The position numbers were made by a program, and so were the translations under genes. DNA of 64,000 nt from Burkholderiales bacterium. Its GTDB lineage: Bacteria; Pseudomonadota; Gammaproteobacteria; Burkholderiales; Casimicrobiaceae. The stretch lies in assembly GCA_025354165.1 (NCBI GenBank), contig JANXNI010000045.1:1-64000 (forward strand), given 5' to 3'. Below are positions 30,555 through 54,095 of the stretch, piece by piece; within the stretch, counting starts at the first letter, position 1, and each line of letters opens with the position of its first letter. The notes beneath the pieces are model-generated. The model was not told the DNA's origin and did no database searches. It saw only the letters and a list, made by a program, of their open reading frames with translations.

Positions 30555-31277
30555 ATGACCACAGTTCACGACAACGCAAACCACAACGCCGATCCGGCGG
30601 AACTCGCTAAATTCTCCGCCCTCGCCAGCCAATGGTGGGACGAAAACGGCAAATTCCGACCGTTGCACGACATCAACCCACTGCGTCTGGCGTTAGTCGA
30701 CGAGCATTCGGGCGGCGTCAAAGGCAAAAAAGCGATCGACATCGGCTGCGGCGGCGGCCTCGTCTCGGAAGGCCTCGCCCGCATGGGCGCACAGGTCACC
30801 GGCATCGACATGGCAACCAAAGCGCTGGCGGTGGCCAAACTGCACGCGCTGGAATCAAACGTCGTCGTCAATTACCGCGAAATCACGGCGGAGGCGATGG
30901 CGAAGGAAGCCGAAGGCCAATTCGACATCGTCACTTGCCTAGAAATGCTCGAACATGTCCCCGATCCCGCGTCCGTCGTCGCCGCCTGCGCCAAACTTGC
31001 GAAACCCGGCGCACACCTCTTCTTCAGCACCATTTCCCGCACGCCGAAAGCATATGCCTTAACCGTCCTCGGCGCGGAATATGTGCTCGGTCTGCTACCT
31101 AAAGGCACCCACGAATACGCGAAATTCCTGAAACCCTCTGAGCTAATCGGTTTCGCGCGCACCGCAGGCCTCGAACTCGTCACGATGCACGGAATGTCGT
31201 ACAACCCGCTCTCCCACATCGCCAAATGGTGCGACGACACCAATGTGAACTACATCGTTGTCATGCGAAAGCCGTAA
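30555..31277 (+). CDS. ubiG: Ubiquinone biosynthesis O-methyltransferase
   Basis: 240 residues. SAM-binding motif I is IDIGCGGGLVSEGLARMGAQVTGID; other UbiG parts are DPAELAKFSALASQWWDENGKFRPLHDINPLRL at the N-terminus and EMLEHVPDPASVV, then LFFSTISRTPKAYAL. UbiG carries out both O-methylations in ubiquinone synthesis. It lies 12 bases after the amidohydrolase gene, so co-transcription is expected. Confidence 0.96.
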   Translation: MTTVHDNANHNADPAELAKFSALASQWWDENGKFRPLHDINPLRLALVDEHSGGVKGKKAIDIGCGGGLVSEGLARMGAQVTGIDMATKALAVAKLHALESNVVVNYREITAEAMAKEAEGQFDIVTCLEMLEHVPDPASVVAACAKLAKPGAHLFFSTISRTPKAYALTVLGAEYVLGLLPKGTHEYAKFLKPSELIGFARTAGLELVTMHGMSYNPLSHIAKWCDDTNVNYIVVMRKP

Positions 31278-31484
31278 CAGCTTTTTCTTAAAATGACGGC
31301 TGCGTAAGGGCTGATGCGCGTTTTATTAACTTCTCGATAAGTCCATTAATGGCCATTTAGCCCAGATGCACTAGTCATTTCGCCGAAAAGCTATAGTCTG
31401 ACTGACAAACCATTTCGGCCATAACTACGCATGCAAAATCCCCAAGCTACCGCTCCCAGCAGCTTGCTAGAATTAAGTCTCATT

Positions 31485-31559
31485 GGGCGGTTAGCTCAGC
31501 GGTAGAGCACTGCCTTCACACGGCAGGGGTCACTGGTTCGATCCCAGTACCGCCCACCA
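31485..31559 (+). tRNA. tRNA-Val (anticodon CAC)
   Basis: A full cloverleaf: acceptor GGGCGGT paired with ACCGCCC, D arm TAGCTCAGCGGTAGAGC, anticodon stem CTGCC/GGCAG around loop TTCACAC (anticodon CAC), T arm CTGGTTCGATCCCAG, and encoded CCA. Its 3' half is the attachment site of the island that follows: it is repeated at 40546. Confidence 0.95.
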
Positions 31560-31598
31560 ATGAAATCAAGGACTTACGGGAAATCGTCGGTCCTTTTT
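31511..31598 (+). repeat. Attachment site attL (88-bp direct repeat)
   Basis: Runs from the anticodon stem of tRNA-Val through its CCA end and the terminator hairpin. Matches 40546-40633 at 86 of 88 positions; the differences are A/T in the anticodon loop and T/A in the T loop. Confidence 0.9.
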
Positions 31599-31599
31599 T
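31568..31599 (+). terminator. Terminator of tRNA-Val, inside attL
   Basis: AAGGAC/GTCCTT stem with inner ACG/CGT pairs and a T-run. The same hairpin is in the right repeat (40603-40633). Confidence 0.65.
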
Positions 31600-31606
31600 A
31601 GTGGCA

Positions 31607-31627
31607 GTATGACAAAAGTATGACTTT
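31607..31627. promoter_or_regulatory. Candidate integrase arm site, left
   Basis: Two direct GTATGAC copies separated by AAAA and followed by TTT, starting eight bases inside the left repeat. The right end has the same arrangement. Confidence 0.55.
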
Positions 31628-31860
31628 GATGACTTTTGGCATGTCGTCGAAAGCGGTCGATTCAGCAATTGGACTGATGCAAACGACACTCTCTGCCGAC
31701 TGAGCGACCTGTTCCGAGGTCAGCGCCCTACGGACTTGATTCCGCCGAACCAACGACGCAAAACAGGTATTCCCTTTCAGGGTGCGAATGCATCGAGTCG
31801 ACTCGTGGTGCGCAAAAACATCCTTTGCGACGGTTCGCGCATCATGCCGTGTGCTGCGAC

Positions 31861-32190
31861 CTAGACTTTCAAGTGCTCGCAAAGTAGATTGAACTGCGAC
31901 ACTGACTCCTCGAGCGAATGAAGTTCCCGTTCAAGTTCATTTAGCGTGAATCGTGTTTCGCGCTGCGGCGAAGAACTCGGCATTCCGGGCGCGACGCTGA
32001 CAACCACGTTTGCATATTGAAGGACGGCCCATCGACCGTAAACAAACGAATTCCGCTTGCCGTGGAGCGAGTCCATGGTCCGGTGCCAAGCGCGGAACTC
32101 GGATACGTAGGCAGGCTCAGCCGCGAACTTCAACTCGATGACGTCCTTCAGCGCATCCAGTTTGTTTTTGAAGGAGAGCCGTTCGACCAA
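31861..32190 (-). pseudogene. Truncated hypothetical gene
   Basis: 109 residues from a TTG codon, rich in charged helices (LSFKNKLDALKDVIELKFAAEP, then SLHGKRNSFVYGRWAVLQY, then LNELERELHSLEESVSQFNLLCEHL). The His-Gly-Lys-Arg-Asn run resembles uncharacterised helical proteins of phages and islands. In-frame coding (YPYAPITWALVERL) continues upstream of the TTG to a stop at 32218-32220 and no ATG exists, so the 5' end appears cut off where the intron relic starts. Function unknown. Confidence 0.45.
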
Positions 32191-32194
32191 TGCC

Positions 32195-32392
32195 CAAGTG
32201 ATTGGGGCATACGGGTATCACGTTCTCGATCTCTGGCGGCGCTCGCTACGGCGACGCAGTCAGAAGGACCGGACGACTTGGGCGCGCATGGATCGCCTGG
32301 CCGCCGAGTGGTTGCCGCCGCCCTATGCGCTTCATCCTTGGCCCGAAGATCGCCTGAACGTCACGGCCCGAGGTAAGCGCCGTTTGCCTTGA
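32195..32392 (+). pseudogene. C-terminal remnant of a group II intron reverse transcriptase/maturase
   Basis: The frame GYHVLDLWRRSLRRRSQKDR, then TTWARMDRLAAEWLPPPYAL, then HPWPEDRLNVTARGKRRLP to a stop is the end of an LtrA-like protein: in that family the last residues are of the type LRRRSQ...W.RM...WLP...I.HPWP..R. Only about 65 residues of more than 400 are left. The left edge abuts the truncated gene on the other strand, so both were cut by one rearrangement. Confidence 0.75.
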
Positions 32393-32410
32393 TTGGGCAA
32401 GTGCGGATCT

Positions 32411-32448
32411 GTGCGCGAGGTGCCGAGCAATCGGCACCCTACCGCGAT
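32411..32448 (+). other. Domain V-like hairpin of a group II intron relic
   Basis: GGTGCCGA-GCAA-TCGGCACC is a perfect 8-bp stem with a GNRA tetraloop, with a weaker GCG/CGC lower stem and a bulge on the 3' side. It starts 18 bases after the maturase stop, where domain V of a group II intron is expected. The catalytic triad cannot be confirmed by eye. Confidence 0.4.
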
Positions 32449-32575
32449 CTTCACACAGGCGCTGCATACCTGCCCACTGCGAGCGGCATCAACTGGCCGA
32501 GGGCTGCCACTCCGGCATTACGATGTAGCCGCTCACGAGGTCACGGGCTCCATGCTGGTCCACAAAGGGAGCCTT

Positions 32576-35500
32576 CTATGGCTTCAGCGCGTCGATCGCG
32601 CGAAGCACATTGTCGTTACTCCTACCGGAATTTTTCGCGTTTGCGGTGATCGTTGCGGCGACGACCGGATCGTTGGCGTTGGCCGCAGGATTGAGCAGGC
32701 GCCGCAGGATCATCAAACCGTCGGTCATCGCCAGCGTTTGCCCATCCCCGTCAACATCGAACAACCCAAGATTTGTTGCTATATGCGTAGCAATTTGTGC
32801 CGCGTCGCGCACCGATGCGCCGTTGCCCAGGGCATTTGCGACGAGAGCGGATCCCCGGTAGCCAAGCAGGTAGCGCAACAGCAACACGCCATCGGTCGCA
32901 GCGTCGTAGGTCGTGGTAGTGTCGCTGTTATCAATGTTAAGGATGGGGCCATATGATGCGGTGAGCTTTGCGGAAGTTGTCGTGGCGCTCCCCGCCCCAT
33001 TGGTGAAGGTTGCCCGATACAGTTTGTTGGTGTCGAGTGCCTGGGCGGTGAAGCTCAACGTGGTCGAGGTTGCGCCTACCACCAGCGAAAAACTAACGCC
33101 GCCGTCCGCGCTTACGAACCACTGAACTGTTGGCGCAGGGATACCAGAGGCACCAGCAGTGAAGCTGGCCGTTGCACCCACAGACACCGAGGTATTCGCC
33201 GGATTTAGCGTGATGCTAGGGATGGATCGGTTAGTTAGCAAAAAGTTGGCTGCGGGGAGGCTCGCCGCGCTAGCGGTAACCATGTACGCCCCCCCCGACG
33301 TTGCATTGGCGGTGAACGGCGCCGAGGCAACGCCCAAGGCATTTGTCGCAAGCGAGATCGTGGCAGTGTTGTTGCTGAATGTTCCGGAGGCGCCGGAGGC
33401 AGGGGCTGTGAACGCAACAATAACGCCCGACACAGGGTTGTTGGCTGCATCCGTGACCGTCACAGCGAGAGCGTTTGGAAATGCCGTATTGACGTCAGTT
33501 TGCTGAGGCGTTGTACCTGCGTTGGCCACGACCTGCGACGGAGGTCCCGCCACGTTACTCAGCGAAAAGTTCACCGGGATGAGGCCCGTGGCGGCTGCGG
33601 TTACGTTATAGGACCCGCCAGCGATTGAGTTGGCGGTAAACGGTGCCGATGCCACCCCGAAACCGTCTGTCGGCACCGTAATGGCTGTCCCATTGTTACT
33701 GAATGTGCCGGAGGCGCCAGAGCTCGGAGCGGTGAAGGTGACGCTGACTCCGGGCACTGCAGTGTTCGCACCGTCCTTGACGGTCACCGTCAGTGGCGCC
33801 GCGAAGGCCGTGTTGATCGTGGCAGATTGCGGCGTGCTGCCGGCATTGGTTGTTAGCGTGTCTTGCTCAACCGCAAAATCGTCGATAAACCAACCGCTGC
33901 TGTTAACACCGCCGTCTGAGCCGAACACGAAGCGAAATTGCACCGTCTTGCCGGCGTACGCGGACAAATCCATGCGAATACGGCGCCACGCATTGAACCC
34001 TGTGGTGTCGCCTGTCCAGCCGGGCTGGCCTAACAATCCGTCCAAGCCTCCCGGCGAGTTGTACGGTGACGAAAGTGACGTACCGGGCACCACAGCGAAC
34101 GGGCCACCATCGATTGAGGCCTCAAGGTTGCCCCCGTCAAAGTTTGTCTCGGTCGAGAGCCACATCCAGAAGCGGAGCTTGTAGCTGCGAGCCGGACTGG
34201 CGGGAATCGTCACCGGTTGGGCCGTCAGGATCGCATACGCTCCGTCTGGATAGTTTGCCGCCGTCAGTCCGGTGGCAAAGAGGGAGCCGCCGCCGCCCGT
34301 GTGGTCACTCAATGGACCCTTGGCAGGGACACCCCTTGCCCATACTCCCCCCGTCGAGCGCCAAGCCGGTGGCGCGGACGCTCCGTCAAAGCCGGTTGAG
34401 TACAGGTAAGGTGATGTAGGGTCCCACGTAACCGTCGCTGTCGCGCCAACTGCGAGCGCGTTGTTTGAGTTGTCCACTACCGCGCCCGGCGCAACCGCGA
34501 CGGTCACGGGTGTGTTTGCGAGAGTCGGCGTGATCGGAAGGAAATAGATGGGGCCCGTTCCTGTCAACGCGCCCGCGGTTCCGCCGGTAACGGTGACGCT
34601 AGCGGCAGTGAAACCAGTCACGGCTTCCGAGAATTCGAACCGGAACGCGATTGGCGAGACATTCGTCACTGTTGTCGCAGGGGTGATCGACAGCGTGGGC
34701 GGGGTGACGTCCGGCGGCGGTGGGAGTACCGGCACCTGGAATACCCCGCGACCGTGCGTCGCGACAACCAGGTATCGCTCAACAAAGAAAATCTCTGCGG
34801 TGGACACGTTGGACGGACCGACGTTGGTCGCACTCCATGTTGCTCCGGCGTCCTCCGAGCCAAAGACGCCGAGATCAGTCGCAGCATAGATTACGTTGGA
34901 ATTGTCGGGCCTGATGGCCAAGCCGTAAATTGGCGCTAGCGGCAAATTGCTGGTTACGCTAGCCCACGTCGCAGCGCCGTCATTGCTCCGCCAAAGATTC
35001 GTCGCGCCGAAATTGGCCGCGTCAGAATAGCCCCCAAAAGCAACATAGACGCGGTTGTTGTTGTTTGGATCAAAAACTATACGTCCAACGCGACGGTTGG
35101 GAAGGCCCACGCCGTTAGTGTCTACCTGCGTCCATGTCGGAGCGACAGCAGTGCCGTTGGTCGTCTTGTAAACGTTGCCGTTCCGATGCCCGACATAAAT
35201 CAAGTCGGCATTGCCGGGGGCAACTGCGATTGCTGTGATGTTGTCGGCCGAGGTCGCGCCGGTCGCGGACTTGATGGCAGTCCACGCCGGCGAGGGCGCT
35301 TTGACATCATTTGACCGCCAGAGACTTTTGCCGCCCACGAGCATCCTGCTTTGGTTGTTGGGATCGAGAATGAACGGCGCAATAAACTCTGCACCGGTTG
35401 ACGAATTTGCGTCTGTAATGCCCGAATAAATGTTGCTTGAGGACAATCCTGCGTTATTAGAGCGGGCCACGGTCGCGTACACATATTCGCCGTAAAAATA

Positions 35501-37066
35501 ATTGGGATCCGTCTGATCAGCGGCGCAAAAGCCGCCGTCGCCGCCGTTCATTACAGTCCAGCCTTCGGTGTTGCCTGAGGGACCGCGCAATGTGCCGTTA
35601 TCCTGTGCGCCCGCAACAATTGTGAGTGAAGTTGGATTACCCGCGGCGCCGTAAAACTCGGTAATGCCCAGGGTATTGTTCAGCTCTGTCCAACCCGTTG
35701 TGCCCGCCGCGGTCAGAGCGTTTTCGGCCTTGTAGAGTCCGCCATCGTTAGCGAAATAGACGCGCGTATTGGTCGTCCCGTTATAGCCGGGATCAGACAC
35801 GATGCCGTGATGATCTGCGTGCGCGGAGGCCGGCGCTGATTGCCACGTTGATATCTTGGTTAGATTAGCGCCACCGTTGGTTGATCGATAAAGGTCAAGA
35901 CCGCCCACGATCAGCGTGTTCGCGTTGGTGGGGTCAACCCAGATCGCGTTCGAATACCAACCTTGACTGCTCATCCAGTTGGTGCTACCCGCCACGGTTA
36001 CCTGGGCATAGGTTTGCCCGCCGTCTACGCTCTTGTACAGCGACGAAGTACCGTTGTTCCAGAAGCCGGCGAACACGGTTCCAGCAGCGCTGTTCGCATA
36101 CGCAAACTCCGTGCGACCCGGCAGAGAGCCGGTCCCTGGAGCAGGTAACCCGGTCGCAGCCGTCCAGGTGAGCCCACCATTGTTTGAATAAAACGCGAGG
36201 GAGCTGTAGCCCGTTGCGATGGCATTGAGGGAGTTGTTGGGATCAAACGCTACCTGAGTCATGCGGGACAGCGTGACCTGGACCTGTGACCACGACGTTC
36301 CGCCATCATTGCTGCGAAAGATGCCGGTTGAGGTGGCGGCAAGAAGCGTCGCGCCGTTCGGTGAAATGGCGAGCCGGTTGACGTAGTAGAAGTTAGGCGT
36401 GTTCGTCGCGGCGAGCTGGGACCAGGTGACGCCGCCATCCGTCGATTTAAAAACGCCCGCGCCGCGCACGCTGTCAGCGTTGAAGAAGCCCTCCCCCGTG
36501 CCCACGTACATGATGTTGCTATTCGTGGGATCCATGATTACCGTGCTAATCGCAAGGTTTGCCATGAAGTCGTCCACTGGCGCCCAAGACGTACCGGAGT
36601 TCGAGCTGTACCAGAGCCCGCCGACCACCGAGCCCAGCCACAAGCGGTTGGTCTGCGTAGGATGAATAACAAGAGACCGTGTGCGTCCTCCGACGTTACC
36701 CGGTCCACGCCAAGTCCAGCCCGCTGGCGTCACCAGTGCATTGGTGACCGGATCGACGTAGTTCATCGGCGTGCTGTTGCCATTCGCATCCTTTACCGCC
36801 GCCGGAAGTACACGCGGGTTCAAGGGTATCCGCTGTGCCGCCTCTCTCGCGGCCTGCATGCGCGCGGGATCAATAACGCCGTTATCGTCCGCGTAAAAGC
36901 TGGCACGCCACTTTTGCCGTTCCTCGAGCAAGTCCGAGCGGGTCATCTGACGTCCGTCGATTTGAGGTAGCGGTTCCGGAACGCCAACCGGCGCTGCTGT
37001 AGTTAGAGTTGCGAACAATGCCAGCCAGACGGCGACAAAGGCTGGAACGACAGAACGAAATTTCAT
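32576..37066 (-). CDS. Giant secreted beta-propeller protein with Ig-like modules and dockerin-like C-terminus
   Basis: 1496 residues. Signal peptide about 1-25 (FVAVWLALFATLTTAAP). Residues about 110-780 hold many BNR/sortilin-type propeller repeats (GGTSW, STDGGVTWSQL, RSNDGGTSWSQV, SNNGGLTWTAA, GSEDAGATWSA). Then an Ig-like domain about 785-885 (PPTLSITPATTVTN...), a MAM/jelly-roll-like domain about 885-1070 (YSTGFDGASAPPAW ... GWFIDDFAVEQ), two Big_1-like repeats about 1070-1280 (NAGSTPQSATIN / NAGTTPQQTDVN), an Ig-like domain about 1282-1370, and a C-terminal pair of dockerin-like Ca-binding segments (TDGVLLLRYLLGYRG, DVDGDGQTLAMTDGLMILRRLLN). Likely exported and surface bound or free; partner unknown. 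No secretion genes are near. Confidence 0.85.
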   Translation of the reverse strand: MKFRSVVPAFVAVWLALFATLTTAAPVGVPEPLPQIDGRQMTRSDLLEERQKWRASFYADDNGVIDPARMQAAREAAQRIPLNPRVLPAAVKDANGNSTPMNYVDPVTNALVTPAGWTWRGPGNVGGRTRSLVIHPTQTNRLWLGSVVGGLWYSSNSGTSWAPVDDFMANLAISTVIMDPTNSNIMYVGTGEGFFNADSVRGAGVFKSTDGGVTWSQLAATNTPNFYYVNRLAISPNGATLLAATSTGIFRSNDGGTSWSQVQVTLSRMTQVAFDPNNSLNAIATGYSSLAFYSNNGGLTWTAATGLPAPGTGSLPGRTEFAYANSAAGTVFAGFWNNGTSSLYKSVDGGQTYAQVTVAGSTNWMSSQGWYSNAIWVDPTNANTLIVGGLDLYRSTNGGANLTKISTWQSAPASAHADHHGIVSDPGYNGTTNTRVYFANDGGLYKAENALTAAGTTGWTELNNTLGITEFYGAAGNPTSLTIVAGAQDNGTLRGPSGNTEGWTVMNGGDGGFCAADQTDPNYFYGEYVYATVARSNNAGLSSSNIYSGITDANSSTGAEFIAPFILDPNNQSRMLVGGKSLWRSNDVKAPSPAWTAIKSATGATSADNITAIAVAPGNADLIYVGHRNGNVYKTTNGTAVAPTWTQVDTNGVGLPNRRVGRIVFDPNNNNRVYVAFGGYSDAANFGATNLWRSNDGAATWASVTSNLPLAPIYGLAIRPDNSNVIYAATDLGVFGSEDAGATWSATNVGPSNVSTAEIFFVERYLVVATHGRGVFQVPVLPPPPDVTPPTLSITPATTVTNVSPIAFRFEFSEAVTGFTAASVTVTGGTAGALTGTGPIYFLPITPTLANTPVTVAVAPGAVVDNSNNALAVGATATVTWDPTSPYLYSTGFDGASAPPAWRSTGGVWARGVPAKGPLSDHTGGGGSLFATGLTAANYPDGAYAILTAQPVTIPASPARSYKLRFWMWLSTETNFDGGNLEASIDGGPFAVVPGTSLSSPYNSPGGLDGLLGQPGWTGDTTGFNAWRRIRMDLSAYAGKTVQFRFVFGSDGGVNSSGWFIDDFAVEQDTLTTNAGSTPQSATINTAFAAPLTVTVKDGANTAVPGVSVTFTAPSSGASGTFSNNGTAITVPTDGFGVASAPFTANSIAGGSYNVTAAATGLIPVNFSLSNVAGPPSQVVANAGTTPQQTDVNTAFPNALAVTVTDAANNPVSGVIVAFTAPASGASGTFSNNTATISLATNALGVASAPFTANATSGGAYMVTASAASLPAANFLLTNRSIPSITLNPANTSVSVGATASFTAGASGIPAPTVQWFVSADGGVSFSLVVGATSTTLSFTAQALDTNKLYRATFTNGAGSATTTSAKLTASYGPILNIDNSDTTTTYDAATDGVLLLRYLLGYRGSALVANALGNGASVRDAAQIATHIATNLGLFDVDGDGQTLAMTDGLMILRRLLNPAANANDPVVAATITANAKNSGRSNDNVLRAIDALKP

Positions 37067-37499
37067 GTGTTTGCCATGGTGTTATGGGACCGAAAAGTTC
37101 GGCCTCGATCGGCCGTTGAAATGCAGGGCCAAATGCGCGTTTGCGACAAGCCGCCAAGCTGTTCAGGAAAAAGTGTAGCGCAGAACTGGCCTGCCGACCG
37201 GCGGCCCACCGCTGCTTTTTGGGGATATCCCACAACACGGCGACGGCAGGCGTAGAGAGATCGCGTCGGGGTCCGAAACGACATTTCACGTGCGTCTCGT
37301 TCATTCCTTGCATCACGGAGCGATTGGAACAAGCAGAGCGCGAAGCGAGCATTGACCTATTGTCGGTTTCTCTTCAATCTGTCACTTTCGCACTTTCAAT
37401 TGTCACCAACGCCTTCAATATGTCACTGACTGCGCCCGAGTTTCCGGATACCTTCTGCAAACACCCACCCATCGTCCGCTCAAGAACTCCTAAGTACAG
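37067..37499. other. Island intergenic region with periodic TGTCAC repeats
   Basis: 433 bases with no gene. At 37361, 37380, 37401 and 37421 a TGTC(A/G)(C/G) motif recurs every 19-21 bases, with CTTCAAT or CTTTCAAT before three of the repeats. Repeats of this kind are found at ends of IS21-family elements; no transposase is present. It also contains the 5' leader of the propeller gene. Confidence 0.4.
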
Positions 37500-38425
37500 T
37501 TGTCACGCCTACGCATAGCCACATGGAACTTGGCACGCCCGACCAGAAACGGACATCAAAAAAATGCCCGCCGACTGGCGCAGATTCGGCAAATCGATGC
37601 CGACGTTTGGGTGCTGACGGAAACTATATCGTCGCTGGCTATCGACAGCTATTCATCGGTGTTCGCGCCGAGCCTTGCGAACTATCACAGGGAAGGCGAA
37701 AGTTTCACAGCCGTATCTTCACGCTGGCCGATTCGGCAGACGCTTCCGACGTTTGATCCGCACTTTGCAGTTTGCGCTGAAATAGATTCTCCTTTCGGCC
37801 TAATGCTGGTCTACGGAACCATCATTACTTATGCGAACGATCGAGGTCCCGACGGAGCATCACAGAGGTGGGAGGAACACCGAAAATCACGCTCAGCACA
37901 AGCGTTGGACTGGCAGCATCTACGGCTTAAGTTTCCCAATCACTCTTTTTGCATTGCTGGCGATTTCAATCAGAGTCGCGACGGGACGGGGCGGTACGCA
38001 GACCAGCAGTCTGTCGAATCCTTGTCGCGCGGTCTTGAGGAATCGTCGATGCATTACATCACGGAGATGACATGGGGAAGGAGGGACTGTCTCGCGCGTC
38101 CGTGGACCACATCTGCGTTAGCCACAACCTTGGCGCGAACGTCAGAAGGGTCGGTGCTTGGGAGGGCAGAACGCCCGACAACTGCGTCATAAGCGATCAC
38201 AACGGGCTGGACGCTGACATTGATACTGAATTCACGGCCACCTCCATTCGTGACGTCCGCTTCAGCGTGCTTACCCAGACGAATCGCTTTAGTGCGGTCG
38301 TGCACCAGTCGTGGGGGCATCTCCAGAGTACTTGTAGAAAGCACGCTGCCAATCTGCACCTGAGTACGTGCACGAGTATTTGCCTCGCATTTCGCCACTA
38401 CAGCAAGAGGCTAGGCCAATACTGA
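37500..38425 (+). pseudogene. Endonuclease/exonuclease/phosphatase family gene with frameshift
   Basis: From TTG 37500: LRIATWNLARP at the N-terminus with the Asn metal contact, DVWVLTET with the catalytic Glu, and SFCIAGDFNQSRDG with the Asp-x-Asn motif. After MHYITEMTWG near 38075 the family sequence continues in another frame as GLSRASVDHICVSHNLGANV, then VGAWEGRTPDNCVISDHNGL, which contains the final Ser-Asp-His motif. So one base change in a G-rich run (about 38070-38090) splits the gene. It is either a recent pseudogene or a sequencing slip. Family members are metal-dependent phosphodiesterases or nucleases. The second frame runs beyond the domain into the convergent sir2 gene. Confidence 0.7.
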
Positions 38426-39244
38426 TTCGATTGCCTGCAACCCTGCCAGAGCGCTCATTGGCAATCCCACGTCCAAGTCACGCGGAACACTTAGCTCGCG
38501 CGGATTGATACGAATGAGCCTCGCGTCGAATTCGTGAATCATGCGTTGGCTGAAGTGACGCACCGACGGGATAGCGGTTCCTGCGCCCAGTTCGATGACC
38601 ACTGGATTGCTGATCTCACGCAACCACGCTTCCTGACGATAGTCCTGCGCCACTGCCCGTTTGTCGCTCCAGTCGCGATCTCCAAACATCAGCACGTTCG
38701 GGCGAGCTAACCCGCCGCACTTGGGACATAGCGGCAGTTCTGACAACAACTCGCACGCCTCGACCTCAATCACCGGATCAAAGTCATCTGCCGACCATGT
38801 GTCGCGTGAGCAGGGTTTGAGACACTGCAAATGATGAATTGACCCGTGATACTCCCGAACATCGCGAGCGTCGAATCCTGCTTTCTGAAACTGACCGTCA
38901 ACATTGCTCGCGAAGACAGAACAGCCGTGCAGCATAGGCTCCGCCCAGCGCTTGAGAATGTCGAAGCCCTCGTGTGGGACGGTATTTCGGTAAAGATTCA
39001 GGCGATGGCCATAGAAGCCCCAAGCACGACGCGGATTGCGATGAAACTCATCCGGGCATGCAATCGAATAGAACTCGATGTTGGCCTTTGCCAGCGCGGG
39101 ATACGCTTTCCAGAATCCTTCGTTTCCACGAAAATCTGGCAAGCCAGAATCAACGCCCATACCTGCCCCGGCGGCGATGACTAGGGCGTCCGCTGATTCG
39201 ATCAAGCGGGCGGCGCGTTCAATTTCATTGCTGACGTCAATCAT
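38411..39244 (-). CDS. Sir2-family NAD-dependent protein (sirtuin)
   Basis: 277 residues. The NAD-binding motif is IAAGAGMGVDSGLPDFRGNEGFW. The family TQNID motif appears as SNVDGQFQKAG. The catalytic His is in EYHGSIHHLQC, and cysteine pairs LQCLKPC and CPKCGG form a zinc site. ELGAGTAIPSVRHFS and IRINPRE complete the Rossmann fold. Sirtuins deacylate lysine or transfer ADP-ribose; some stand-alone or fused Sir2 proteins in islands destroy NAD during phage attack, but this one keeps a zinc module typical of deacylases. Its ATG overlaps the integrase stop (TAATG), so it is translated with int. Confidence 0.88.
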   Translation of the reverse strand: MIDVSNEIERAARLIESADALVIAAGAGMGVDSGLPDFRGNEGFWKAYPALAKANIEFYSIACPDEFHRNPRRAWGFYGHRLNLYRNTVPHEGFDILKRWAEPMLHGCSVFASNVDGQFQKAGFDARDVREYHGSIHHLQCLKPCSRDTWSADDFDPVIEVEACELLSELPLCPKCGGLARPNVLMFGDRDWSDKRAVAQDYRQEAWLREISNPVVIELGAGTAIPSVRHFSQRMIHEFDARLIRINPRELSVPRDLDVGLPMSALAGLQAIESVLA

Positions 39245-40419
39245 TAGACCGCCAGGCGAGCAAGCGCCTTTGTAGCGTGACTTTGCGTCAAGTGTCCATA
39301 GTGCTTTTCGATCATCGCCAGGCTCGTTCCCGAAAGCTGCGCGACCGTCAACGTATCCAGGCCATCGTGAATCAAGTCGGTGATGACGGAATGACGCAAC
39401 GTGTAGGCGGTAGTGGAATCTGGCAAACCCGCTGCGCGGGCTGCTTCCTTAACCGGCCCCTTCCAGGCATCCTTCCCCCATTTCTCGCCACCATCGCGGG
39501 TGAACAGAAAAGCAGTTGGCAGCTTGCTTTCTACCTGATTTGCGAAGAGTGCAGCCGTCGCCTCCGGAAGAATGATTTTGCGATCACGGCCCGATTTGTC
39601 TTTGCCAATTGCCAGCGCATTCAGGCGCTTGTCAAAGCTCCCAACTTTGAGTGCGGCCAGAGCACCGGGGCGCACCGGTAACAGCGCCAAACCAGTAAGA
39701 AAGTTAGCGACAGCACCCACCGAAGCACCGATAAGAGCCTTGCGCTGTTCAACGTCAAGGTAGCCTGCACGCGCCTTGTCAGCATTTTTGATTGGTTTGA
39801 GACCCGATTTCCATGCAAAGTCACTGGTCACAAAACCCTCTTCCAGCGCATGATTCAAAGCCGCCCGAAAGCTGGTCATGTCGCGATTCAGTGCGCTTGC
39901 ACTTCGCGGTCGCTCCCTTGCATTGACACCATAGCCAACAACTACCGGCAACGTGGCTAACGCGGCGCGCCACGCTTTGATCTGAGCGGGCTTCAGTTTC
40001 GTCAAATCGGTTGAAGCCAGGCGACCGTCCGAAATCACGCGGCGAGTGAATCGCGACTGCGCGTCATCGGCCGCCGGGTCGCCCTTAGTTTCGCGAAGGT
40101 GCGCCACGTAGCGCTCGCACGCCAGCCTGACCGTTACCTCTTCCGTACTGCCGCCCTTCCCCAAATGGACGAACCAGTCCACAGCCGCTTTCCGCGCTGC
40201 GTCAAAACGCTGACTTTGGGGAAGACTTTCGAACTCGCCCAAAGCCTTGAAGATGCGTTTGCCCGTGGTTTCGTCAACCGAGCGGGCCAACCAAGAGCCC
40301 TCGCTACCAGGCTTCATCTTGCGGAGACCCAACGAACAACCCTGTTCAAGGCGAGCCCAGTAAGGATCTCGCCGCGCCTTTAGGTTTTCGCGGTCACCTA
40401 CTTTTTGAAGATTTGCCAT
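39244..40419 (-). CDS. Tyrosine recombinase (island integrase)
   Basis: 391 residues. N-terminal arm-binding domain about 1-90, core-binding domain about 95-215, catalytic domain after about 220. Catalytic residues visible: Arg in LLPVRPGALAALKVGSF, Arg-His in YTLRHSVITDLI (the usual first His is Tyr here) and the nucleophile Tyr in MIEKHYGHLTQ. It faces inward from attR and is the likely enzyme for integration at tRNA-Val. Its start is 12 bases from the right GTATGAC pair, so integrase bound there could also repress its own gene. The stop overlaps sir2 by one base. Confidence 0.93.
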   Translation of the reverse strand: MANLQKVGDRENLKARRDPYWARLEQGCSLGLRKMKPGSEGSWLARSVDETTGKRIFKALGEFESLPQSQRFDAARKAAVDWFVHLGKGGSTEEVTVRLACERYVAHLRETKGDPAADDAQSRFTRRVISDGRLASTDLTKLKPAQIKAWRAALATLPVVVGYGVNARERPRSASALNRDMTSFRAALNHALEEGFVTSDFAWKSGLKPIKNADKARAGYLDVEQRKALIGASVGAVANFLTGLALLPVRPGALAALKVGSFDKRLNALAIGKDKSGRDRKIILPEATAALFANQVESKLPTAFLFTRDGGEKWGKDAWKGPVKEAARAAGLPDSTTAYTLRHSVITDLIHDGLDTLTVAQLSGTSLAMIEKHYGHLTQSHATKALARLAV

Positions 40420-40430
40420 CGCCCGCCTTA

Positions 40431-40451
40431 GTATGACGAAAGTATGACTTT
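40431..40451. promoter_or_regulatory. Candidate integrase arm site, right
   Basis: Two direct GTATGAC copies separated by GAAA and followed by TTT, between the int start codon and attR; the spacing and orientation equal those at 31607-31627. Confidence 0.55.
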
Positions 40452-40545
40452 ATTCTATAGATTTCTCTGGACAACCGTGAACTCTAAACCATTGTTTCTG
40501 CTATGAAATAGCGTCCAAAAAAAATTCTAAAACATCCCGATTCCC

Positions 40546-40633
40546 TGCCTTCACTCGGCAGGGGTCACTGGTTCGAACCCAGTACCGCCCACCAATGAAA
40601 TCAAGGACTTACGGGAAATCGTCGGTCCTTTTT
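40546..40633 (+). repeat. Attachment site attR (88-bp direct repeat)
   Basis: A second copy of the tRNA-Val 3' part plus terminator, without the 5' half. The anticodon loop reads TTCACTC and the T loop TTCGAAC, each with one change from the intact tRNA. Confidence 0.9.
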
Positions 40634-40714
40634 CTTTTTTGGTTCGAACAGCAGGTAACGCGGCGTACGGCATCAATGATCGGTGCCACAACTGTCATTT
40701 CATTCGCTAACCGA

Positions 40715-42235
40715 CTACTTCGCTGTCGGCATCACAAACTCTGCTCCTTTGCCAATGCTTTCTGGCCAGCGCTGCATGATGCTTTTTTGTTTGGTGTAGA
40801 AGCGCACGCCTTCTTCGCCGTACGCGTGCATATCGCCGAACAGGCTCCGCTTCCAGCCGCCAAAACCGTGCCAGGCCATCGGGACAGGAATCGGAACGTT
40901 GATTCCCACCATTCCCACCTGAATACGTCGCGAAAATTCGCGCGCTACGTTGCCGTCACTGGTGAAGCAGGCAACGCCGTTGCCGAACTCGTGTGCGTTG
41001 ACCAGGTCGATGGCTGCGGCAAGATCATCGACACGCACGCAAGCGAGTACTGGGCCAAAAATTTCCTCTTTGTAGATGCGCATTTCCTGCGTGACGCGAT
41101 CAAACAGACTGCCACCGGTGAAGAATCCGCCCTCGTGACCTTCGATCTTTGTGCCGCGCCCATCGACCACCAGTTCTGCACCCTCGGTCACGCCGACGTC
41201 GATATAGCCCTCGATGCGCTCAAGTGCCTGCCTGGTCACAATCGGGCCCATCTCAGCATCCAGCTCCATGCCGTTTTTGATCTTCAGTGCGCGAGCACGC
41301 TCGGCCAGTTTCGGCACAATCTTGTCGGCCACGTCGCCCACCAGCACCGCGACGCTGATGGCCATGCAGCGCTCACCGGCTGAACCGTACGCCGCGCCAA
41401 TTAACGCATCAACGGCCTGCTCAAGATTGGCATCCGGCATGACGACCATGTGATTTTTTGCACCGCCGAGCGCTTGCACACGCTTGCCGTGATGCGCGCC
41501 GGTTTCGTAGATGTAATGCGCGATGGGCGTCGAGCCAACGAATGACAGCGCCTTAACGTCTTGATGCGCGAGCAGTGCGTCCACCGCGACTTTGTCGCCC
41601 TGAACAACGCTAAAAACGCCATCCGGCAAACCTGACTGAGTAAGCAGCTCCGCCATGAAAATACTCGCCGAGGGGTCGCGTTCGCTCGGTTTAAGAATGA
41701 AGCAATTACCGCACGCAATCGCCACCGGAAACATCCACATCGGCACCATGACAGGGAAATTAAACGGCGTGACGCCAGCGACAACGCCCAACGGTTGGCG
41801 CAGCGTCCAGTTGTCGATTCCGGTCGATACTTGATCGGTGTAATCGCCCTTCAGCAGTTGTGGGATGCCACAGGCGAATTCGACGATATCAATGCCGCGC
41901 GAGACTTCGCCCTGCGCATCCGTGAACACTTTGCCGTGCTCCGCAGTAATCATCGCAGCAAGCGTGTCCTTGTGTTCATTAAGCAACGCAAGAAATTTGT
42001 TCAGCACGCGAGCTCGGCGAATCGGCGGGGTATCGGCCCAAGCGGGGAAGGCTTTTTTTGCTGCGGCAACCGCTGTATTTACGTCTTCGACGGCAGCGAG
42101 TAGAACCTTGCGCGGAACCTCGCCAGTGGCGGGGTTGAACACAGACTGCGATCGGGCACCGATGCCGGAAGCTGCGCGTCCGTCGATGTAATGAGTGATG
42201 TCGGAGGTTGATGTGAAGGGTACGGGAGCGGTCAT
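40715..42235 (-). CDS. mmsA: CoA-acylating methylmalonate-semialdehyde dehydrogenase
   Basis: 506 residues, usual length. Aldehyde dehydrogenase superfamily in the MmsA branch: [34 protein letters not shown], then [14 protein letters not shown] and the catalytic Cys in [17 protein letters not shown]; the end [20 protein letters not shown]-type sequence is seen as [21 protein letters not shown]. It turns malonic or methylmalonic semialdehyde into acetyl- or propionyl-CoA with loss of CO2 and NADH formation. It is the last gene of the leftward operon and the expected final step after the IolC-aldolase fusion. The island sits directly downstream. Confidence 0.95.
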
Positions 42236-42301
42236 GATGTGATGCTTTGCGATTTCGTGATTGGGAAAGTGTGTATCACGATTCTTGCACTACGCGATTG
42301 A

Positions 42302-43114
42302 CTATTGGGTGGCAGTGAGACCACCATCGATGTACAGCACCTGTCCGGTCACGAAATTTGCGCCCGGCCCGCAGAAAAATACCGCCGCACTCGCCAAATC
42401 GCTGGCTTCGGCGACGCGGCCTAGCGGAATACGCTGCAGAATGTGTTGCCGAGTTTCTGGGTTAGTCAGCCAGTGGCTTCCCATGTCGCCTTGAACTACG
42501 GTTGGCGCAATACCATTTACGGTAATTCCGTGCGCGGATAATTCCACCGCGTGCTGCTTGATGAGCATGGCCAGCGCGCCTTTGGTCGCACAGTACGCCG
42601 AGTAGCCACGATCCCTCATGCCAAGCTGGGCGCGGACGGAGAGCACGTGAAGTTGGCGGCCCGGTGCACGCCCGGTCTTTACTGCCGCAACCTGATGCGC
42701 CGCCACCGCTTGCGCCAGAAACATGGCTGCTTTCAAGTTAACCTGCACCACTTCATCGAAAGCAAGCTCGCTGACCTCCGCCAGACGCTCCTCACGCTGA
42801 ATCCCGATGCAGTTAACCAGAATATCCAGAGCGCCAAAATGCTGGGCAACGTGATCCACAGCGCTGCGGATACTGTCGGTCGAATGCGCATCCATCGCGA
42901 TCCCCAAAGCATCATGCCCGGCAGCGCGAAGGCGAACCGCAAGCGCGTTGGCTTTGTCTGTATTGCGCCCTGAAACTGCAACGGTGGCGCCCGCAGCCGC
43001 CAGCGCCCACGTCAATGCCTCACCAATGCCACCGTAGCCACCTGGGATGTAGGCCACGCGGCCGTGCAGACCGAACAACGCGGGTAAATCGGTAGTTATT
43101 GTGTTTGTGGTCAC
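42302..43114 (-). CDS. Short-chain dehydrogenase/reductase 1
   Basis: 270 residues from a GTG start. Nucleotide-binding glycine motif in YIPGGYGGIGEALTWALAAAG, NAG-like motif replaced by NCIGIQ, and the catalytic Tyr-x-x-x-Lys in YSAYCATKGALAML. The end VTGQVLYIDGGLTATQ is typical of classical SDRs. The substrate is unknown; it is four bases from the second SDR gene, and in the context of a polyol/sugar-acid locus an oxidation of a hydroxyl is likely. Confidence 0.87.
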   Translation of the reverse strand: MTTNTITTDLPALFGLHGRVAYIPGGYGGIGEALTWALAAAGATVAVSGRNTDKANALAVRLRAAGHDALGIAMDAHSTDSIRSAVDHVAQHFGALDILVNCIGIQREERLAEVSELAFDEVVQVNLKAAMFLAQAVAAHQVAAVKTGRAPGRQLHVLSVRAQLGMRDRGYSAYCATKGALAMLIKQHAVELSAHGITVNGIAPTVVQGDMGSHWLTNPETRQHILQRIPLGRVAEASDLASAAVFFCGPGANFVTGQVLYIDGGLTATQ

Positions 43115-43118
43115 GACA

Positions 43119-43871
43119 TCAATCCATCACAAGGCCGCCGTTGAGATCAAGCACCTCACCGGTGATGAAACCCGAAAGCGGCGATGCCAGGAAGCGTACT
43201 GCGTGCGCAAACTCTTCGGGCTCACAGAAGCGACCCACCGGAATTTGTCGAATCAATTCCTGACGCTGTGCCTCGTTTAGCTGCTCAGTAATCATTGGGG
43301 TTTTGACATAGGCTGGCGCTATCGCGTTGGCCGTTACGCCATAGGCGGCGAGCTCGCGCGCCAGCGAAAATGTCAGCGCGCTCATTGCGCCCTTTGACAC
43401 AGAATACGCCGTACCCGCCGTCAGTCCACCGGTTTTGGCCGCGAGAGAGCTGGTATTAATAATTCGCCCCCAGCGATTGGCCTTCATTGCGGGCACCACG
43501 CATTGCGCCCAAAACAATGCGCCGTCCAGATTCGCTGACATCACACGCCGCCACTCGGCAACCGTCGTTGCTTCGATTTTGTTGTTCGACAAAATGCCAG
43601 CATTGTTGACCAGAATTTCGACGACACCGAACTGGTGGACGACCTGTTCGTGCGCAACCTTGACCGCTTCCGGGTCACCGATGTCACAAGCAATCGCCAC
43701 CACCGTATGGCCATACTGCGCCGCCAACGCAGCCATTGAAGTCAAGTTCAAGTCGATCATCGCCACGCGACAACCGTCAGCGCGAAGCGCATGCACCACC
43801 GCGCCGCCCATCGTTCCACCTGCACCCGTCACCAGCGCAACCTTGCCATCAAGAGACGGGAAATTGTTCAT
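43119..43871 (-). CDS. Short-chain dehydrogenase/reductase 2
   Basis: 250 residues. GAGGTMGGAVVHALRADG binds the cofactor, NNAGILSNN is the NNAG motif, NTSSLAAKTGG holds the catalytic Ser and YSVSKGAM the Tyr and Lys. It ends ITGEVLDLNGGLVMD. ATG 43871 overlaps the LivH stop codon (ATGA), so translation is coupled. A longer frame up to 44030 lies inside livH and is rejected. Confidence 0.88.
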   Translation of the reverse strand: MNNFPSLDGKVALVTGAGGTMGGAVVHALRADGCRVAMIDLNLTSMAALAAQYGHTVVAIACDIGDPEAVKVAHEQVVHQFGVVEILVNNAGILSNNKIEATTVAEWRRVMSANLDGALFWAQCVVPAMKANRWGRIINTSSLAAKTGGLTAGTAYSVSKGAMSALTFSLARELAAYGVTANAIAPAYVKTPMITEQLNEAQRQELIRQIPVGRFCEPEEFAHAVRFLASPLSGFITGEVLDLNGGLVMD

Positions 43872-44797
43872 ACTTCGAGCACACTCTTCTTGCCAAACAA
43901 ACCGCGTGAACGAAACGTCACCACTGCAATAAACAATATGTACATCGACATCAGCGACCACTCCGACGCGTAAGCCCCCGTAAGCCCTACCACCAGACCT
44001 ACCATGAGGCCAGCAATCACCGCCCCCCAAAGCGAGCCGACACCGCCGAGTACGATGATCAGAAAGGCCGGTACGACGGCGTCTACGCCCACCTGCGGAC
44101 GGATCCCCCAGATGGGAGCCAGCACGATGCCAGCCAACGCCGCAAGCGCAACCCCGAGCGCAAACACCGCCGCACGTAAACGACTCAGGTTGATGCCAAG
44201 CGCTCGTACCATCTCGCTATCGTGCGCGCCAGCCTTGATGATGGCACCGTAGGGCGTGCGCTGCAGAAAAAGCCACAGCGCGAGGATCGCAATGACGGCA
44301 AATGCACTGGCGAACACGCGATACTTTGAGTAGATCAGGTCTCCCACCATGAATGCCCCTGAGATCGACGCTGGCAGCAGTAGTTGCTGCTCGTTCGAGC
44401 CCCAGGTCAAACGGATGAGCTCTTCGATCACCAGCGACGCACCAAAGGTCAACAGCAATCCATACAACGGATCACGACCATAAGTGCGGCGCAGGCACAG
44501 CTCAATCAGCAAGCCAAACATGCCCACCAACACCGGTGCAAAGAAGATAGCCAGTGCGTAGCGCGTTGCAATCGGCAGCGCCATGTAAGCGGCCTGCAAT
44601 TCAGGGAACCAGCCGAGCTTGGGAGCGATTAAAAACAGCGCGACATACATGCCCAACGCGAACAGCGAGCCATGTGCGAGATTGATCGTCTCCATCACGC
44701 CCACGATCAGCATGAAGCCGAGCGCTATCAGCGCAAAGAGCAGACCGAGGGTGATGCCGTTAGCGATATGCGGCAGAAGCGACAACAGGGAATCCAT
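43868..44797 (-). CDS. livH: Branched-chain amino acid-type ABC transporter permease (LivH)
   Basis: 309 residues with about eight membrane helices. The N-terminal GITLGLLFALIALGFMLIVGVMETINLAHGSLFALGMY is the LivH hallmark; ALGINLSRLRAAVFALGVALAALAGIVLAP is the EAA-like loop that contacts the ATPases. It should pair with LivM encoded in the divergent operon. The substrate family of this transporter class also includes amides, urea and aromatic acids, so branched-chain amino acids are not assumed. Confidence 0.9.
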   Translation of the reverse strand: MDSLLSLLPHIANGITLGLLFALIALGFMLIVGVMETINLAHGSLFALGMYVALFLIAPKLGWFPELQAAYMALPIATRYALAIFFAPVLVGMFGLLIELCLRRTYGRDPLYGLLLTFGASLVIEELIRLTWGSNEQQLLLPASISGAFMVGDLIYSKYRVFASAFAVIAILALWLFLQRTPYGAIIKAGAHDSEMVRALGINLSRLRAAVFALGVALAALAGIVLAPIWGIRPQVGVDAVVPAFLIIVLGGVGSLWGAVIAGLMVGLVVGLTGAYASEWSLMSMYILFIAVVTFRSRGLFGKKSVLEV

Positions 44798-44821
44798 AGA
44801 ATTTCTCGTTAGTGCTCCGAG

Positions 44822-46153
44822 TCAAGGCTCGTAAGTCGGCAGGGCCGCTAGTGATTCAAGCTGACACAACGGGGCACTGGCTCTGTCTTGTACGTCCTCT
44901 GGTCGTTGCCGATCGAGAATACGATACAGGTCGTCTTTGTGCGTCGGTCGTGAGTTGTAGGACGCGATGTAAATCGTTTGTTGCAACTGGTGCGTTTTTG
45001 GATTCATGTACGCATCAAAGTGCTGCATCCGGTCACGCGCGGGTATGCGCAAATTCTCAAGTTCGCGGATGAGTTTGATGTTGTTGGTGCTACCGGTGCG
45101 CTCAATGGCTCGGAGCAGTTCACGGGTGGCCATGTAGCCGTTAAAGAAAACGTTACCTGGCGTCTGGATGCGGTAGTCCGGGTTCGCTTTTTGGTAGCGC
45201 GCCACAAAGTCGTTCACGCCTGGAAGTTTGAGCCCCCAATACCAGGTAGTCCCAAACACACCAAACATGGATTCGCGCCCGAGCCCATACACATCGGGCC
45301 AGTCCTGTTGGTTGTTAATCCAGCCAACGGATCGATCAAGGCCCGCCGCTTGCACTTGCGCGCGCAGAAGAGCAAGGCCTTCCCCACCCACGGCAGTGGC
45401 AACCACCCGTGGGCTCAATTTTTTGATCGTCTCGAGCTGCGGGCGGAAGTCGCGCGTATTCTGCGCAACGATCAACTCTTCGACGATGCGTCCGCCGTTC
45501 GCTGAAATCATCTCACGAAGGCCTTTTGCCGTGCTGTGCCCCCAGCCGTAATCACTCGTAACCAGCACCCAGTCGCGACCATAACCCGACATCGCACCGT
45601 TTACGACCGACGTCGAAAAATTGGTGCTATTGCCGTCCCATACGAACTTGGTACGGTGACAGTCCTTGCCCGCTTCGGTCGGTGAGCTGGAGTTACTGTT
45701 GAAGTAAATACAGCCGTACTTCTGGGCAACGGTCGACATGGCGCTGGCCACACCGGAGTGCACGCCACCGATAAGAAAACCCACCTCTTGCCTGGTGATC
45801 ATTTGCTCGGCGACTGACGCTCCAGCGTCGGCATTGCCTTGTGTATCTGCATGCGTGATCTCCAGCCTGCGACCGAGCACACCACCTCGTTCGTTCGCCT
45901 CGTTGATCGCCATGACCATGCCGCGCCGTTCATCGCGGCCACTGGCAGCGTACTGGCCGGTGTCGTCGGTCGCGAGGCCGATTAACAGTGGTTTCCGGTT
46001 GCGCACGACCAGCGCTTGAGATCGCTGAACCGCTCCAGCACCGGATAACGCGAGAACAGCAGTGGCACCCGCCGCACCAAGTAATTTACGCCGCTGCGGA
46101 AGCATAGATTGCTCAGTTAGCGGGGACAGTATTTTCGGCATGATGGGATTCAT
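44822..46153 (-). CDS. Periplasmic solute-binding protein 1 (LivJ-type, Tat signal)
   Basis: 443 residues. The signal region has a twin-arginine segment, QRRKLLGAAGATAVLALSGAGAV, so export in folded form via Tat is likely. The mature part is a type I periplasmic binding protein: LLIGLATDDTGQYAASGRDERRGMVMAINEANERGGVLGRRLEI, then YFNSNSSSPTEAGKDCHRTKFVWDGN and VGWINNQQDWPDVYGLG. It is clearly paralogous to the next gene upstream. It should deliver substrate to LivHM. Start at ATG 46153; ATG 46141 is also possible. Confidence 0.9.
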   Translation of the reverse strand: MNPIMPKILSPLTEQSMLPQRRKLLGAAGATAVLALSGAGAVQRSQALVVRNRKPLLIGLATDDTGQYAASGRDERRGMVMAINEANERGGVLGRRLEITHADTQGNADAGASVAEQMITRQEVGFLIGGVHSGVASAMSTVAQKYGCIYFNSNSSSPTEAGKDCHRTKFVWDGNSTNFSTSVVNGAMSGYGRDWVLVTSDYGWGHSTAKGLREMISANGGRIVEELIVAQNTRDFRPQLETIKKLSPRVVATAVGGEGLALLRAQVQAAGLDRSVGWINNQQDWPDVYGLGRESMFGVFGTTWYWGLKLPGVNDFVARYQKANPDYRIQTPGNVFFNGYMATRELLRAIERTGSTNNIKLIRELENLRIPARDRMQHFDAYMNPKTHQLQQTIYIASYNSRPTHKDDLYRILDRQRPEDVQDRASAPLCQLESLAALPTYEP

Positions 46154-46165
46154 GGCGACAGCGAA

Positions 46166-47572: not shown

Positions 47573-47674
47573 GATGTTTCTCCTTGATTGAAAGCGGCGA
47601 GAGAGCATCTCGCTCTAATGTGGTTTGTGTCAGTTAAATGCAGTGACGTGATCGTGCAAAAAAATGGAAGGTAG

Positions 47675-48568
47675 CTACAGAATCTTTACGTTGTTGAGCT
47701 TCGCCTGAACCTCAAACAACGAAGGGATGAACTTATCGGCGAAACCCAGATTGGCTGCCTGAACGAAGCTCTGATGCGCGGCCTCCGCGACGTAGCTGGT
47801 GGTCGGCAACATTTCAGTCAGATGCGTGAAATATCGGAGGTCTTTTTGTGCATTGCCGATGGCAAATTTCAAACCCGACAAATCCCCCTGTAACGCGCGC
47901 CCCAGCATCATTTGAAAGATCCCCGAGTTAACGCCACCGACGGAGATCACGTCGAACAGCTTTTGCAGTGACAATCCGCTCTTGGCTGCAGCCGCAACGG
48001 CCTCGGCAATGGCGGCAGCAGTAGTCATCGCAAGCATGTTGTTGATCAGCTTCAACACATGGCCATGACCGGGTGGTCCGACGTGAACGATGTTTTCGCA
48101 GAACGCTGCGAGCACGGGCCGCACCCGATCAAAGTCCGCCGATTCAGCACCGACCATCGTATTGAGCCGACCTTCTTCCGCCTCTTTCGGTGTCCTCGCT
48201 AGCGGCGCGTCGATGAAAGTCACCCCCTTCGCCGCGAAGTCGATACGGATGCGCGTGCTCGATGCGGGTTCAGCGGTAGACGTATCGATTACGACTAACC
48301 CTCTGCCAGATGCGGTGAGCAGGCCATCTGTCCCGTAAACAATTTCTTCCACCTGCGGTGTGCCGGTCACACAAACGATGACGACGTCAGCACCTTTAAC
48401 GAGTGCTTCGCGGGTATTCACTTCGACAGCCCCTGCGTCGATCAGATCCTGCAAATTGGTTCGATTACGGTGCGCCACAAAGCGCAAACCAAAGCCTTTG
48501 GTCAGCAGGTTTTTTGCTATGCCGTGGCCCATCATTCCGAGGCCAATAAATCCAACAGTTTGCGTCAT
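47675..48568 (-). CDS. 3-hydroxyisobutyrate dehydrogenase-like oxidoreductase
   Basis: 297 residues of the beta-hydroxyacid dehydrogenase family. GFIGLGMMGHGIAKNLLTKG binds NAD(P), FIDAPLARTPKEAEEGRLNTMVGA is the substrate-binding signature (family DAPVSGG-type), and GPPGHGHVLKLINNMLAM holds the catalytic Lys. Relatives reduce tartronate semialdehyde or oxidise 3-hydroxyisobutyrate. With MmsA in the operon it could handle a semialdehyde/hydroxyacid pair. The start overlaps the stop of the upstream iolC fusion gene (ATGA). Confidence 0.88.
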   Translation of the reverse strand: MTQTVGFIGLGMMGHGIAKNLLTKGFGLRFVAHRNRTNLQDLIDAGAVEVNTREALVKGADVVIVCVTGTPQVEEIVYGTDGLLTASGRGLVVIDTSTAEPASSTRIRIDFAAKGVTFIDAPLARTPKEAEEGRLNTMVGAESADFDRVRPVLAAFCENIVHVGPPGHGHVLKLINNMLAMTTAAAIAEAVAAAAKSGLSLQKLFDVISVGGVNSGIFQMMLGRALQGDLSGLKFAIGNAQKDLRYFTHLTEMLPTTSYVAEAAHQSFVQAANLGFADKFIPSLFEVQAKLNNVKIL

Positions 48569-51500: not shown

Positions 51501-51544
51501 AGTTCAGATAACTCGGTCTGGTCGGTTTGAAAGAAAATAAACGA

Positions 51545-51574: not shown

Positions 51575-51618
51575 ACATTTCATTTTGTCGAGTGTTTTAA
51601 AAAATATTTCTAATCATC

Positions 51619-52650: not shown

Positions 52651-52652
52651 GC

Positions 52653-54094: not shown

Positions 54095-54095
54095 G

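Follow-up and report, generated by a model that had tools for sequence, protein, structure and literature searches.

The stretch of DNA analysed here, the window, comprises 64,000 nucleotides (nt; positions 1 to 64,000, forward strand) of contig JANXNI010000045.1 of a Burkholderiales bacterium of the family Casimicrobiaceae (GCA_025354165.1), whose genome is a 4.72 Mb draft in 97 contigs. The only transfer RNA (tRNA) gene that ARAGORN found in the window is an intact tRNA-Val(CAC) gene (31485-31559, forward strand). A direct repeat on the forward strand contains the 3' half of this gene and a terminator at the left (31510-31598) and the displaced counterpart of both at the right (40545-40633). 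An open reading frame (ORF) for a tyrosine integrase of 391 aa lies on the reverse strand (39244-40419) and reads inward from the right end. This layout agrees with an initial annotation made from the sequence alone, in which the intact tRNA gene was placed on the left, the integrase on the far right, and repeats of 88 nt with two mismatches were described; the repeat is in fact 89 nt long. The 9,035-bp segment is very probably a genomic island integrated site-specifically at the tRNA-Val gene, with the arm sites, promoter and cargo described below.

The two repeat copies are spaced 9,035 bp apart and are 98% identical, and 87 identical positions out of 89 are far beyond chance. From the 5' strand of the anticodon stem onwards, the repeat spans the 3' half of the tRNA and then a stem-loop that has a T-run; for this stem-loop, folding energies of -13.2 and -14.2 kcal/mol were calculated (z -2.25 and -3.21). 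The mismatches affect the anticodon loop and the T loop of the tRNA part, at one position each, and the final 56 nt are identical. The right copy lacks the 5' half of the tRNA, and the bases 3' of this copy are similar to those 3' of the terminator in genome G003 of the same genus. A search of the genome with 31485-31720 returned both repeat copies and two further matches of 76-77% that were confined to the tRNA part. Because all 20 related tRNA-Val genes carry the anticodon-loop base of the left copy and none that of the right copy, it is the right copy that was altered; the T-loop base is variable among these genes. Such a change is as expected of a displaced fragment; the differences between the copies do not fix the crossover point. 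The terminator is identical in both copies, unlike in nine of the ten other complete elements described below, which suggests that the element may have cycled within this lineage.

The integrase ORF matched Phage_integrase in Pfam (E 1.3e-9), which recognised only the catalytic domain, and an integrase family in PHROG (E 3.2e-33). Residues R250, R342, H343 and Y374, to which we assign presumed catalytic roles, are kept in all 97 aligned integrases. The start of the integrase gene (int) is 125 bp from the right repeat. Here, a sigma-70-like int promoter is predicted at 40452-40481 on the reverse strand with 9 of 12 matches, a prediction that is weak by itself (one found, shuffle mean 0.3). Its -10 box abuts the integrase-side arm pair introduced below, which suggests autoregulation by the integrase. 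At the other end of the gene, the int stop codon overlaps the start codon of a sirtuin gene by one base (TAATG), so that the two genes may be co-translated.

A scan of genome contigs yielded 132 integrase relatives, of which the best 80 were kept. The tRNA 3' half is usually found 110-160 bp upstream of int in this family. A tRNA-Val-like 3' half with a score of at least 22 was present within 450 bp upstream of int in 61 of the 80 loci, while the maximum score in shuffled controls (one shuffle per locus) was 14; several of the other 19 loci have upstream halves resembling other tRNAs. Nine loci are complete elements of 2.8-10.9 kb bounded by an exact repeat of the tRNA 3' end (41-50 nt), eight of them at tRNA-Val and one at tRNA-Arg. 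An element of the same-genus genome G010 is bounded by a perfect tRNA-Val repeat of 50 nt, has an arm pair of its own at each end, and carries at its right end an integrase that is 36-37% identical to that of the window. Locus L123 of G010 (1459-7076) was recorded as another 5.5-kb element at tRNA-Val, with RelE-like and helix-turn-helix (MqsA-like) genes. Outside the genome contigs, a phage collection gave three weak partial integrase matches (23-25% identity), and 16 IMG/VR contigs hold integrase relatives at 40-58%.

Repeat comparison and the family pattern pointed to a tandem pair of short repeats inside each end of the segment. At the tRNA-side end (31606-31627, forward strand), AGTATGAC occurs twice with an 11-bp period, and the pair at the integrase-side end (40430-40451, forward strand) differs from it at one of 22 positions. 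The same arrangement is found in all 11 complete elements (the nine, that of G010 and the window), in which a stretch of 21-30 nt recurs inside both ends with 0-2 mismatches and consists of a short word that occurs twice in tandem (imperfectly in L113). The word varies among many elements, yet it matches between the two ends of one element. When the 115 bp upstream of int were examined in the 80 loci and the window for an exact 8-nt tandem repeat of period 10-12, a pair was detected in 72 of the 81 regions (66 at period 11, six at period 10), with 0.4 expected from mononucleotide shuffles and none in 76 control flanks. For the 71 loci with an arm pair, a second copy was searched for up to 11 kb inward without use of tRNA positions. 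Eleven loci had one, in ten cases no more than 130 bp beyond the 3' end of an intact tRNA gene (L035 being the exception), and no opposite-strand match occurred among the 71. Eight of these ten are in known elements, and L040 and L061 were newly found in this way. The paired repeats are best read as putative integrase arm sites.

The gap between arm pair and tRNA was measurable in 62 of the 81 loci, 14 being dropped for lack of a scored tRNA-Val half and five for lack of a pair. It measures 80-84 bp in 28 loci, 90-94 bp in 22, 102-107 bp in five and 86 bp in one, with outlying values of 11, 13, 52, 176 and 270 bp in five loci. A phase statistic for these related loci was 0.66 at 10 and 10.5 bp, compared with 0.53-0.58 at 9, 11 and 12 bp. 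Steps of about 10-11 bp are only suggestive of helical phasing.

The ubiG-tRNA stretch was also searched in 40 related genomes, and 39 gave some match. A tRNA-Val gene follows ubiG in eight of 16 same-genus genomes, and no island gene was found in the DNA examined for these eight, which in G003, G006 and G008 extends under 2 kb past the 3' end of the tRNA gene. In G001 and G008, which represent other species of the genus, tRNA-Val with its terminator occurs once after ubiG and is directly followed by bpt; in the other six genomes the following genes differ. In the window, bpt (54760-55503) is 23 kb from the tRNA, with the 9-kb island and a 14-kb block between them, and the match to G001 ends at about 40636 and resumes at 54781. 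The initial annotation had proposed an integrase-borne island with intact ends, for which the single-copy site in G001 and G008 and the same kind of ends in independent elements with such an integrase provide support. Its naming of ubiG on the left and an mmsA-like aldehyde dehydrogenase gene on the right is borne out by Pfam. Its expectation of an empty site between ubiG and mmsA was wrong, since the neighbour in G001 and G008 is bpt and mmsA is located elsewhere in the relatives.

Islands of this kind integrate at a tRNA gene and re-supply its 3' part. The window contains what such islands typically show, tRNA 3' repeats with an intact tRNA gene and an intact integrase near one end, and G001 and G008 have the single-copy site. 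In the mechanism that we propose, the integrase would recombine an attP site, made of the tRNA-Val 3' half and terminator, with the tRNA-Val gene as its target. Integration would restore the tRNA at the left with the re-supplied half and leave the displaced 3' half at the right. The AGTATGAC pairs at each end would serve as arm-type binding sites that position the integrase for integration and excision, and in the closed circle they would flank the start of the anticodon stem at distances of 93 and 96 bp. Through the pair beside the predicted int promoter, the integrase probably also represses its own gene. As cargo, the island carries the sirtuin, a nuclease-like gene that is frame-broken, and a large protein of secreted type. 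Since no transfer or packaging gene was recognised, movement of the element between cells would depend on help from a phage or a conjugative element. Excision, arm binding, autoregulation and transfer are inferred.

Several observations weigh against this interpretation. The GC content of the island (0.578) equals that of the host (0.574); its tetranucleotide use, by contrast, speaks for an island, since it differs from that of the host (0.156, versus 0.080-0.105 in 22 overlapping host windows, which also contributed to the reference). The empty sites seen are those of other species of the genus. At 96 bp, the arm-to-tRNA gap of the window lies in none of the family clusters but between them. 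In 60 of the 71 loci the search gave no second arm copy, at least 9.5 kb having been covered in 37 of them; these may be longer elements or have decayed ends. No excisionase-like gene was recognised, and 10 further small ORFs (at least 60 aa) had no Pfam match at E 0.1. The broken frame of the nuclease-like gene may be a sign that the island is ageing. Finally, a terminator inside the repeat is unusual, because the repeat ends no more than a few nt from the tRNA end in nine of the ten other complete elements.

The host-like terminator in the repeat would be accounted for if no mobile element were involved, and the tRNA region had been duplicated in tandem with genes inserted later between the copies. 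We regard this as very improbable. The 5' half of the tRNA is missing from the right copy, the integrase is at one end and arm-like pairs are at both, and other elements at tRNA-Val and tRNA-Arg show this layout again. The terminator is nearly identical in the two copies of L087 as well, and by eye a terminator-like stretch behind the tRNA 3' half is brought by L053, L059, L069 and L087. Among the loci examined, none was seen with two tRNA copies and no integrase.

A second alternative concerns the present state of the island, which may have integrated once and be fixed now, unable to excise. It overlaps with the favoured reading, which needs no present mobility, and although we hold it to be doubtful, it is the strongest of the alternatives. 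The frame-broken cargo gene, the lack of a recognised excisionase and the anticodon-loop base of the right copy, found in none of the 20 related tRNA-Val genes, are what such a fossil would show. On the other hand, the integrase ORF is intact with its family-invariant residues, the last 56 nt of the repeats are identical, the arm pairs differ at a single position out of 22, and in a draft of 97 contigs the frame break may stem from an assembly error. We regard the segment as a genuine and well-preserved tRNA-Val island that may plausibly still be mobile.

Nearest to the tRNA side lies an ORF of 109 aa (31861-32190, reverse strand), of low confidence as a gene and without match in Pfam, PADLOC, NCBIfam or PHROGs; among 200 genomes of the order, it has one weak relative (28%, G186) besides its own genome. 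A secreted-type protein of 1496 aa follows on the reverse strand (32576-37066), in which Pfam recognised Sortilin/VPS10-like and BNR repeats together with MAM-like and Ig-like domains. Its N-terminal part is 42-47% identical to proteins of G003, G004, G006 and G008, and this resemblance to same-genus proteins suggests that some of the cargo may have originated locally. The C-terminal 130 or so residues (about 1368-1496; 32576-32965) contain an EF-hand-like motif and recur in many proteins of the genus, with many per genome among the matches listed; they may form a sorting or attachment domain. The endonuclease/exonuclease/phosphatase-like gene (37500-38425, forward strand) is broken into overlapping frames at 37500-38192 and 38072-38425. 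The first matched Exo_endo_phos (E 3.2e-9), and the second gave no Pfam match and shows a C-terminal motif by eye.

The cargo gene next to int encodes a Sir2-type NAD-dependent deacylase of 277 aa (38411-39244, reverse strand; Pfam SIR2, E 3.7e-19; PHROG 2162, E 1.3e-43) with relatives in the PDB, and it aligns with 1ici across the conserved Sir2 blocks. Relatives scoring above 200 bits occur in 20 other genomes out of 300 searched in the order. The sirtuin also matched 73 plasmid records (30 covering at least 80% of the query, the best at 62%), five viral contigs, and 26 phage records, every one below 60% identity. Among 82 integrase loci (the 80 with L123 and L124), a sirtuin-like match was found in one (25%, L113), where it is located outside the element. 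From these matches, the sirtuin behaves as a mobile stand-alone gene. That it might be part of a fixed system was considered and rejected, as its neighbours differ among six plasmid records. A truncated sirtuin remnant, 87% identical to the island gene over 366 bp, was observed in L244 (G000:C87, 6470-6835) about 200 bp 3' of a tRNA-Arg(ACG) gene, perhaps as a trace of another tRNA-targeting island in this genome.

No island protein except the integrase is common to the 82 loci, and a search of the plasmid collection with the island DNA gave no near match. No relaxase or mating-pair gene, as expected of an integrative conjugative element, was found among the island ORFs tested with Pfam and NCBIfam. 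The idea of a defence island was rejected, because none of six island ORFs, including the sirtuin, matched PADLOC at E 0.01. The 77 ORFs of the ten other complete elements include 17 PADLOC families with one member each, 11 of which are restriction-modification models. Defence is not a general theme of these elements.

The relatives also raise the question of a phage origin. Hallmark genes were counted up to 10 kb inward of int, a range that may reach past the element end, in 98 loci: the 80 genome loci, the 16 viral contigs, G010 and the window. Two of ten seeds were left out (a restriction-modification enzyme and one without PHROG or Pfam match), as was L072 from the counts, one protein of which matches an internal virion protein PHROG and has no Pfam match. 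Relatives of capsid, portal or large terminase were detected in 19 of the 98 loci (5/80 genome, 14/16 viral, neither of G010 and the window), and in 25 when primase/helicase relatives were added (9/80, 16/16 and 0/2). The remaining 71 genome loci have no hallmark; 43 of them have the full 10 kb in view and 14 less than 3 kb. The presence of hallmarks in some loci and their absence in others indicates that the integrase serves satellite-like elements as well as others.

The island might accordingly descend from a satellite-like element of about 10 kb in which cellular cargo replaced the capsid, terminase and primase genes, and which may still be packaged by a helper. We judge such a descent unlikely. 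The hallmark counts and the 9-kb size fit with it, and the three integrases nearest to the window in the tree (L207, L035 and L208) are all in hallmark-bearing loci, but the node joining them to the window has a support of 0.03. Integrase and site are common to the window and the capsid-bearing elements, yet they are not exclusive to the latter, and most genome loci contain no hallmark; the viral contigs are phage-like by selection. Among the six island ORFs, only the integrase and the sirtuin matched PHROGs, none matched a hallmark, and no packaging, capsid, terminase or replication gene was found. Cargo proteins of other loci match the island solely in the integrase or sirtuin gene.

In a partial survey of the literature by title and opening of the abstract, which is no proof of absence, we found no description of this integrase family with mirrored tandem arm pairs. 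It is conceivable, although rather improbable in our estimate, that these elements of 3-11 kb form a class without a name in the literature surveyed, mostly at tRNA-Val and defined by one integrase family, a mirrored arm pair of 11-bp period that tags the ends of its members, and tRNA distances stepped by about 10-11 bp. Such a class would include capsid satellites and pure cargo islands, and the latter, that of the window among them, may be satellites without phage genes that are still carried by helpers.

Beyond the right repeat, since bpt adjoins the tRNA in G001 and G008, the second block of 14 kb was also gained or moved in the window, separately from the island. This block (40640-54750) contains the mmsA-like gene, other dehydrogenase genes, genes for ABC transporters and for an RpiR-type regulator, and a fused PfkB-DUF2090 gene. 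Of these, mmsA is present in 13 of 14 same-genus genomes searched (71-78% DNA identity); in G005, whose genome is a single contig, large distances separate mmsA, bpt and the tRNA. Apart from mmsA, the block gave only short matches in the 14 genomes, and the fused gene had no full-length match there. A search of the window's own genome revealed no tRNA repeat at the right end of the block. Two further repeats were observed in this genome: a short dispersed repeat just after ubiG (31275-31392), with 72-86% matches on four other contigs, and a 59-bp stretch at 10919-10977 that is 90% identical, in inverse orientation, to 2010-2068 of L244.

The island itself is a textbook case of an ordinary integrase-borne genomic island, and the arm-pair layout is the most useful by-product of the analysis. 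It provides an anatomical rule: a tandem arm-like pair lies beside int, and the second copy, where found, marked the far end at the tRNA in 10 of 11 cases. Arm pairs can thus help to delimit small islands and satellites when nothing but sequence is available, and the layout makes autoregulation of the integrase and the conversion of satellites to islands testable. The capsid-carrying, satellite-like elements L053, L059 and L069, which may be of the cf-PICI type, resemble the island in their homologous integrase, tRNA-Val target, arm-pair layout and size, and differ from it by having capsid, portal, terminase and primase genes. Arm-binding-domain tyrosine recombinases, as classified in PMC8138268, are comparable in two respects, since the size of the window integrase, a mobile-element integrase like these, leaves room for an N-terminal arm-binding part and arm-like sites lie near the attachment site. 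Pfam saw only the catalytic domain in the window integrase, in contrast to these recombinases. For KplE1 and its integrase IntS, the published study (PMC2951348) describes an attachment region that overlaps the int promoter and places an arm-type site at the -10 box, and it shows negative autoregulation of intS. The window differs from that system in that int reads inward from the end opposite the intact tRNA, the window yielded no recombination directionality factor, and promoter and arm sites are predictions. It resembles KplE1 in its integration at a tRNA gene with a duplicated 3' part and in a predicted int promoter that abuts an arm pair (PMC2951348).

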